Shown piece after piece: positions 2,209-36,968 of a DNA stretch of 38,136 nucleotides. Source of the DNA: Candidatus Kuenenia stuttgartensis (GTDB taxonomy: Bacteria; Planctomycetota; Planctomycetia; Planctomycetales; Planctomycetaceae); contig CAMAVB010000043.1 in NCBI GenBank assembly GCA_945861465.1, positions 1 to 38,136 of the forward strand, read 5' to 3'. A model generated the notes under the pieces. The model did not search any database and was not told the DNA's origin. It saw nothing but the letters and a program-made list of their open reading frames with translations. Numbering within the stretch: position 1 is the first letter of the stretch; each line of letters begins with the position of its first letter. Both the position numbers and the translations under genes were made by a program.

Positions 2209-2568
2209 GTGAAGAAGTTTGTGCCAATGCTGCTGACCGGCGGGGTCATAGCATCCATCGCGGGCTGTGCAACTGAGGCGGATCCCGTTTCCGCTGAAGT
2301 TTCGCAGACACCCGCTGTTGCTCCTGCTGTCTCAAAGACGGCCGAGGGAGTTCTCGTGTCCCTGAGTGTGCCGAATATGACGTGAGGCAGCTGTGCCGCT
2401 TCCGTGCGAAGCGATCTGACAAAAATTGATGGAATTATCGACATTCAGACTGATACCGGAAATCAGGTGTGCAGTTTTCGTGTGACCAACCCGACACTGG
2501 ACTACAAGGCGAAACTCAATGAGTACGCCAAAACGAATACCCACCTGAAAGGCTTTTCAATTCAGTGA
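2209..2568 (+). CDS. candidate selenoprotein: HMA-domain lipoprotein with UGSC metal-binding motif (in-frame TGA)
   Basis: GTG start at 2209 with GGAGA six bases upstream; 119 residues if the TGA at 2383-2385 is read as selenocysteine. The N-terminus is a lipoprotein signal: KK, a hydrophobic stretch and the lipobox IAGC with Cys20 as the lipidated residue. An Ala/Val/Pro linker follows, then a heavy-metal-associated (HMA) ferredoxin-like domain from about residue 50. In HMA domains the metal site is GMTCxxC; here the sequence reads PNMT-TGA-GSC, so residue 59 would be Sec in a UxxC motif with Cys62. Downstream the same frame stays open for 60 codons with normal HMA pattern (SVRSDLTKIDGIIDIQTD) to TGA at 2566. 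A hairpin fitting a bacterial SECIS follows the TGA. Known: HMA proteins such as MerP bind soft metals through the CxxC pair. Inferred: an envelope-anchored metal or redox protein with Sec as ligand. A gene finder would stop at 2385 and truncate it. The alternative is a nonsense mutation, but it would have to hit exactly the metal-ligand codon and leave the rest intact. Confidence 0.8.
2386..2418 (+). promoter_or_regulatory. candidate bacterial SECIS element
   Basis: Directly after the in-frame TGA, CGCTTC (2397-2402) pairs perfectly with GAAGCG (2408-2413) around the 5-base loop CGTGC, and CAG (2388-2390) can pair with CTG (2416-2418) as a lower stem. The apical loop begins 17 bases after the TGA and has G at its second position. 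Both agree with the published bacterial SECIS consensus as I know it: a stem-loop shortly after UGA with a G among the first two loop bases. The fold was made by eye, without energy calculation. Confidence 0.55.
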
Positions 2569-5291: not shown

Positions 5292-5368
5292 GTAGGGTGG
5301 GACCAGCGGAGCGCAGGCCCACCACATTGGACAAATGGTGGGCCTGCGCTCCGCTGGTCCCACCCTAC
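5292..5368. repeat. REPIN-like element 1 (GTAGGGTGGGAC family)
   Basis: Two perfect 33-base arms (5292-5324 and 5336-5368) face each other around an 11-base spacer. Each arm starts with GTAG followed by an imperfect palindrome (GTGGG...CCCAC with an inner GCG/CGC), the architecture of a REP unit recognised by RAYT/TnpA-REP proteins. A diverged copy of the same family occurs at 36873-36951. It lies between two minus-strand genes and could also act as a transcription barrier. Confidence 0.85.
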
Positions 5369-36846: not shown

Positions 36847-36968
36847 GGCCTGTTCGTGAATTTACACAGGATGTAGGGTGGGACAAGCGACAGCGCCGGC
36901 CCACCATTTTGCCCAAAGCGGTGGGCCTGCGCTCCGCTGGTCCCACCCTACGCATTCACGAACTGGCC
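36847..36968. repeat. REPIN-like element 6 (GTAGGGTGGGAC family) nested in an outer inverted repeat
   Basis: The inner element (36873-36951) begins GTAGGGTGGGA and ends TCCCACCCTAC. Its right arm is identical to the right arm of the element at 5292-5368, while its left arm has several substitutions. Outside it, GGCC-t-GTTCGTGAAT (36847-36861) is matched by ATTCACGAAC-t-GGCC (36954-36968) with one mismatch, so the element sits within a second palindrome. It lies between gluQ and the two exported-protein genes, where it would separate the transcription units. Confidence 0.8.

Follow-up and report, generated by a model that had tools for sequence, protein, structure and literature searches.

Selenocysteine as the probable reading of an in-frame TGA in a planctomycete heavy-metal-associated domain lipoprotein

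Does the in-frame TGA at positions 2383–2385 end a protein just before its metal-binding motif, or does it encode selenocysteine (Sec) at a ligand position of a heavy-metal-associated (HMA) domain? We addressed this question computationally in the window (the whole 38,136-nt stretch of DNA analysed here), in its genome of origin (G000, an 8.2-Mb draft in 474 contigs) and in related genomes, using the frame, the placement of its motif, a SECIS-like hairpin, homologues and the presence of SelA, SelB and SelD. Direct reading of the + strand gives a 119-residue frame at 2209–2568, which starts with GTG at 2209, contains a single internal TGA, continues for 60 more codons and closes with its own TGA at 2566–2568, as the first-pass annotation had described. 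The signals listed in that annotation are also present on the + strand: a Shine–Dalgarno sequence, GGAG, at 2198–2201, 7 nt before the GTG; a lipobox, IAGC, at residues 17–20 (2257–2268), with Cys20 as the predicted site of lipid attachment; and a terminator-like hairpin at 2610–2638, found in a hairpin scan between the gene and a convergent HAD hydrolase gene (two such sites in the region, 0.8 expected from shuffles). Gly19 and Cys20 are invariant in a four-member alignment. The sister genome G011 has ATG where the window has TTG at 2203–2205, so a start two codons upstream is possible; the Shine–Dalgarno spacing favours GTG 2209. With TGA read as U, the lipobox is followed by a linker and by the HMA domain from about residue 48 (2350–2565), in which the motif PNMT-U-GSC makes Sec59 the first ligand of a U-x-x-C loop.

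A first homologue search of 59 genomes (G000 and 58 relatives, E ≤ 0.001) yielded matches in five, G000 included. The match in G011, from the same genus, is 90% identical to the window protein over residues 1–119, and those in G031, G023 and G024 are 37%, 29% and 35% identical; the first three contain one TGA each and that of G024 none, its motif being CPISC. A second G011 match (E = 7.3 × 10−4) was rejected as a family member, being a Cys protein of another kind. Of 18 genomes of the genus, G000 and G011 alone gave a match to the gene. The four TGA frames were then combined into a profile, which at E ≤ 1 × 10−4 found matches in 183 of 392 genomes of the phylum. Among the matches listed, 28 of the 29 TGA-bearing HMA frames (that of G000 excluded) have TGA at the first ligand position, and these 28 are spread over 26 genomes. 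Such placement is beyond chance and bears out the earlier claim that the TGA falls at the first ligand Cys, for which relatives with either TGA or Cys were to be sought. The remaining TGA-bearing match, in G065, was classed as Cys because its TGA lies elsewhere than at the ligand position. Identical placement is seen, for example, in G366. In total, at least 32 Sec frames occur in 30 genomes (the 28 listed plus those of G000, G011, G031 and G023).

The family varies around this position. Most listed relatives have GMT-U where the window has PNMT-U-GSC, and the Sec spacing is UxxC, UxxxC or UxxxU, the last in G279, G300, G336 and G368. A Sec gene and a Cys gene adjoin in G434, and genus g140 contains both forms, the Sec protein of G247 sharing 43% and 46% identity with the Cys proteins of G325 and G161. 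A tree of 45 HMA domains (76 columns, with 18 of 42 inner branches open) places the window, G011, G366, G031 and G023 in an all-Sec clade with support 95/85; it requires seven Sec/Cys label changes and may nevertheless be compatible with a single origin. A lipobox was found in 29 of 31 family members with a loose pattern, a count that includes G103 and the MerT-like G356 and G059, which are probably not lipoproteins despite the match. Rhodobacter-type loci, which are Cys HMA proteins matching part of the domain, were used for structure alignment only. Two proteins contain two HMA domains: one in G122 (L138, G122:C494) has a ligand-position TGA, and hence Sec, in both, and in one from G213 (L127, G213:C257) the second TGA motif is GMRUVRMC. 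MerT-like proteins ending in a Sec-HMA domain occur in G356 (L134, G356:C40) and G059 (L145, G059:C184), the former also with a CopZ-type iron–sulfur domain (NF047645, above cut-off).

Pfam recognizes the HMA domain of the window protein (PF00403) at residues 52–92 (E = 3.4 × 10−8; 34.2 bits against a cut-off of 24.8), as a partial match over profile positions 2–42 of 62, and gives no other domain above cut-off. A whole-genome HMA search flags the same frame with '1 TGA' at 25.1 bits; at E 0.001, the two HMA matches of G000 are this frame and a second domain, which lies in an open frame of 778 residues. The usual loop with two Cys residues, CxxC, is replaced by UxxC, the first Cys position being the TGA codon. 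An AlphaFold2 model built with ten sequences has modest confidence (mean pLDDT 69.8, pTM 0.52, blocks of 78–88 from residue 51 on) and predicts strands at residues 48–53, 76–82 and 87–92 and helices at 60–71 and 99–109, arranged as in HMA domains; Sec59 immediately precedes helix 1. The beta-alpha-beta-beta-alpha-beta fold is recovered, with a last strand of merely two residues in the model. The best fold match in the PDB is oxidized MerP (1osd; E = 3.0 × 10−4, TM 0.74 by target length, 0.47 by query length); copper chaperones and ATPase domains come next, and three matches reach E 0.001. Against PDB sequences, the family profile finds Cu ATPases first, then MerP (5.5 × 10−18) and mercuric reductase. 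The fold and sequence matches span MerP, Cu ATPases and copper chaperones and so point to no single metal; Hg(II) is favoured by MerP, by the MerT-linked relatives and by general selenolate chemistry. The mercury- or selenium-handling role proposed in the first-pass annotation seems a reasonable reading.

A genuine selenoprotein might still work by redox chemistry, the UxxC on an HMA scaffold acting as an envelope thiol/selenol oxidoreductase or as a peroxide or metalloid reductase. The available text of PMC13188914 attributes a presumed redox function to most of the bacterial selenoproteins that have UxxC-type motifs, and the U-x-x-x-C and U-x-x-x-U spacing of several relatives is unlike the usual CxxC metal site. 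Against this, the fold and the nearest solved relatives are those of metal carriers, Pfam adds no further domain above cut-off, and the Cys homologues in G121 and G024 share the CxxxC spacing, so that we regard a redox function as unlikely, and metal binding by a selenoprotein as the better account.

That the TGA lies within a functional coding frame is indicated by comparison with G011. The two sequences align without gaps over the 360 bases of the frame, and gaps begin just outside it. Before the TGA there are 8 nonsynonymous and 10 synonymous differences (dN/dS 0.26), after it 3 and 7 (dN/dS 0.11), all of these being small numbers, and a 44-nt run at 2377–2420, covering the TGA and the hairpin described below, is identical. 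The codons downstream of the TGA are under purifying selection. Decayed relatives lacking frame conservation, named in the first-pass annotation as the contrary case, were not seen among these homologues.

A SECIS-like hairpin (CGCUUC, loop CGUGC, GAAGCG) was located at 2397–2413 of the + strand by our own script, which applies published criteria and is not a dedicated SECIS program. In the available text of PMC13188914, the bacterial SECIS model has an apical loop of 3–9 nt with G in its first two positions and an upper stem of 4–16 bp, 16–37 nt from the UGA, with a minimum free energy limit of ≤ −7.5 kcal/mol. The window hairpin agrees with this model in its loop, its 6-bp stem and its distance of 17 nt from the TGA to the loop; the hairpin alone, at −6.6 kcal/mol, falls short of the energy limit, and the 50-nt fold from the UGA, at −11.4 kcal/mol, passes it. 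Hairpins in G366 (CGCCUCG-GUC-CGGGGCG) and G031 (CGCGUCG-GUU-CGACGCG), both at 18 nt, have changed stem bases, so the stem is kept despite substitutions. The loops GUC, GGUC, GGU and CGUG recur in the family.

Two tests compared such hairpins between Sec and Cys frames. In the first, the Sec frames, near-copies among them, gave p below 0.1 in 17 of 32 cases and a combined p of 1.3 × 10−7; for the Cys frames the values were 2 of 13 and 0.14. The stricter test used 28 deduplicated Sec frames, after removal of four near-copies, and 300 synonymously recoded sets; it should be conservative, as the recoding codons were drawn from the same pool of family sequences. The comparison excluded G326, whose motif lacks a Cys/Sec pair. 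A hairpin with a G-containing loop at ≤ −5 kcal/mol was present in 21 of the 28 Sec frames (recoded mean 5.4, maximum 10), and none of the 300 recoded sets reached the observed stability. Some results weigh on the other side: the Cys homologues show a certain excess as well (4 of 13, with 1.0 expected and equal stability in 5 of 300 sets), and in the Sec set hairpins lacking the loop G are also more frequent than expected (7 against 2.3), with a stability that 1 of 300 recoded sets reached. No qualifying hairpin was found in G023, G336 and G368, and those of some other Sec frames are weak.

The genome of the window encodes three parts of the Sec machinery, each above its curated cut-off: SelB, a 650-residue open reading frame on contig C130 (345.8 bits), SelA on C273 (440.8 bits) and SelD on C30 (236 bits). 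The first-pass annotation had made its reading depend on this machinery, and its expectation holds for these proteins and fails for tRNA-Sec, which was not found in the 474-contig assembly with the Rfam model, a pattern or a DNA search with the G011 tRNA, the model and DNA searches scoring part of their initial candidates (150 of 1,249, 52 of 1,219 and 15 of 23). Of twelve weak Rfam matches, all below cut-off, ten could be assigned to other tRNAs: the eight that have loci to Ser, Gly, Leu, Cys, Tyr and Trp, and those on C31 and C28 to Leu and Ser; the other two lie on C349 and C363. At the single pattern match, on C18, ARAGORN calls no tRNA. Within the genus, G011, G012 and G014 carry tRNA-Sec that is 99–100% identical to the G011 query, and G031 and G023 carry one as well. 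The gene that flanks tRNA-Sec in the genus, which we take to encode an M32-carboxypeptidase-like protein, is present in five of seven genomes and was not found in G000 and G006, so a stretch missing from the G000 assembly is possible. G003 and G005 keep the flanking gene and give no match to tRNA-Sec, which indicates that loss occurs in the genus. In G024, which has the Cys homologue, there is no SelB, neither the tRNA-Sec pattern nor the DNA query gives a match, and its Rfam matches stay at or below 48.1 bits, with accepted tRNA-Sec genes at 64.9 bits or more.

The TGA might, then, be a nonsense mutation of a Cys codon or a sequencing error, or the strain might just have lost its decoding machinery. 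The patchiness of the gene within the genus and the tRNA-Sec that was not found in G000, nor in several other genomes of the genus, would fit such decay. It is opposed by the same TGA in G011, G366, G031, G023 and 25 further genomes, by the unbroken frame with selection downstream, by the SECIS signal and by SelA, SelB and SelD in G000, and we consider it highly improbable.

Several observations were made at the loci of the Sec machinery. As G012 and G014 have tRNA-Sec and no match to the Sec-HMA gene, the Sec trait does not always bring this gene with it in the genus. In G012 (L082, G012:C602 8900–9648), an opposite-strand frame that by eye resembles a phage integrase follows tRNA-Sec, and the sequence downstream of tRNA-Sec in G014 differs; integration may take place at tRNA-Sec in this genus. 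The neighbours of SelA in G000 (L083, G000:C273 5346–9794) are a protein that has a methyltransferase domain and terminates in Cys-Cys, and a radical SAM/DUF3641 protein, for which we presume a likeness to the arsenite methyltransferase ArsM and to ArsS, respectively, and a link between selenium and arsenic handling is possible there.

Across genomes, the TGA form goes together with the Sec machinery. We surveyed 69 genomes: 30 with the TGA form, 29 Cys-only (a small HMA match without TGA among the matches listed) and 10 of the 18 family genomes listed without a match. SelB is present in 28 of the 30 TGA genomes, in 15 of the 29 Cys-only genomes and in none of the 10 without a match, tRNA-Sec (≥ 60 bits) in 27, 16 and 0, and one or the other in 30, 17 and 0. 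For SelB in TGA versus Cys-only genomes, Fisher's p is 0.0004, uncorrected for kinship. The TGA genomes without SelB are G031 (78% complete) and G356 (64% complete); those without tRNA-Sec are G000, G122 and G087, all three with SelB. Reading of the UGA as Cys or Trp through suppression or a reassigned code, to which the tRNA-Sec not seen in G000 might be taken to point, is the least probable account by our estimate, since TGA serves as an ordinary stop in this gene and in five of nine other G000 frames checked, that of SelB included, since the SECIS-like hairpins and the co-occurrence with SelB and tRNA-Sec indicate Sec, and since relatives have Cys at this position, the usual Sec/Cys exchange.

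The surroundings of the gene give no hint of a metal. It is flanked by genes for a Laminin_G_3-containing protein and the HAD hydrolase, and the five neighbours examined (these two, DUF1501, ATP-grasp and queuosine synthesis) include no gene pointing to a metal and no mer gene. In 11 neighbourhoods compared by eye, no metal operon recurs, the sole recurrence being the neighbours shared between the window and G011. Elsewhere in the window, a 33-nt perfect inverted repeat (GTAGGGTGGGACCAGCGG...) with an 11-nt spacer lies at 5292–5368. Because its core recurs at 36923–36943 and a peptide signature, SAGP, similar to that of the repeat occurs in open reading frames of contig C130, it may be an interspersed REP-like element.

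We conclude that the TGA at 2383–2385 is almost certainly read as selenocysteine, the reading proposed in the first-pass annotation and supported by the homologous TGA frames, downstream selection, the SECIS-like hairpin and SelA, SelB and SelD. The fuller statement, that this is a selenoprotein with a lipid-anchored metal-binding role, we hold with good confidence. The computation establishes the frame, the placement of its motif, the SECIS-like hairpin, the homologues and the three Sel proteins; for insertion in the cell, export, metal and physiological role, we infer the following mechanism. SelB would recognize the stem-loop just past the UGA and bring Sec-tRNA, so that the ribosome would place selenocysteine at residue 59. 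The product would be exported and lipidated at Cys20, displaying a small ferredoxin-like HMA domain with the metal loop Sec-Gly-Ser-Cys. Outside the cytoplasm, its selenolate and thiolate pair would most likely trap or carry a soft metal ion by chelation, after the manner of MerP for Hg(II) or CopZ/Atx1 for Cu(I), making the protein most likely a lipid-anchored, MerP-like metal-binding protein. More tentatively, and at somewhat less than even confidence, we propose that Planctomycetota have a widespread yet patchy family of seleno-metal-binding proteins, exported and often lipid-anchored, whose Sec is a metal ligand rather than a redox catalyst and whose UxxC, UxxxC, UxxxU and tandem Sec forms are tuned to different soft metals, Hg(II) among them. 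If gene calling treats TGA as a stop, the window protein is cut off just before its metal motif, and for this reason family members may be missed or truncated in planctomycete genomes. For some selenoproteins, direct coordination of a metal by Sec has been proposed (available text of PMC13188914), and a single-domain lipoprotein of 119 residues would be a simple system in which to test it.

Among known systems, MerP (TIGR02052) is likewise an exported single HMA domain, periplasmic and Hg(II)-binding, and is the best NCBIfam match to the window protein (2.9 × 10−7), at 30.9 bits against an equivalog cut-off of 92.55; the window protein passes no NCBIfam model. It differs from MerP in its lipobox, in U-x-x-C for C-x-x-C and in having no mer gene beside it. 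The CopZ/Atx1 copper chaperones share the HMA fold and the position of the metal loop (CopZ model 22.4 bits, cut-off 91), and are cytosolic and Cys only. NF041115 (UxxU_metal_bind) likewise has Sec at the ligand positions of a small HMA-like domain: each of the 31 family members scanned matches it at E ≤ 0.001 (best 9.6 × 10−20), none of ten scanned singly reaches its cut-off (best 58 bits), and the window protein scores 22.3 bits against 95, with UxxC rather than UxxU. NF045683, a MerT/CopZ fusion-like heavy-metal transport selenoprotein, has an HMA-like region within a metal transporter; it is matched by the window protein over the HMA part only (17.7 bits against 375), and the MerT-like regions of G356 and G059 match it and MerTP below cut-off.

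Selenoproteins of related kinds have been reported. As far as their available text goes, PMC4807772 reports Sec machinery and selenoproteins in planctomycetes; the GOS survey (PMC2398784) lists two sequences of a selenoprotein 'Mercuric transport protein MerP', known to us by description and alike in name; and PMC9312934 counts among the selenoproteins a ZntA-type ATPase, a mercuric transport protein and a putative mercuric reductase. Table 1 of PMC13188914 includes the UxxU motif of NF041115 and a UxxC cation-transporting ATPase E1-E2, which by its description has UxxC in a heavy-metal transport protein, as the window has, and is a P-type ATPase, unlike the small lipoprotein studied here. The same paper also lists a mercuric transport selenoprotein and others and, in its available text, states that selenoprotein roles in metal detoxification need further study; the available main text makes no mention of PF00403, 'lipoprotein' or 'planctomyc'. 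A standalone Sec-HMA lipoprotein family is not named in the available text of PMC9312934 and PMC12013277, and among the titles listed in literature searches none describes one. Sec-containing HMA proteins are already known, and the standalone lipoprotein family looks like a variant of them that may be undescribed.
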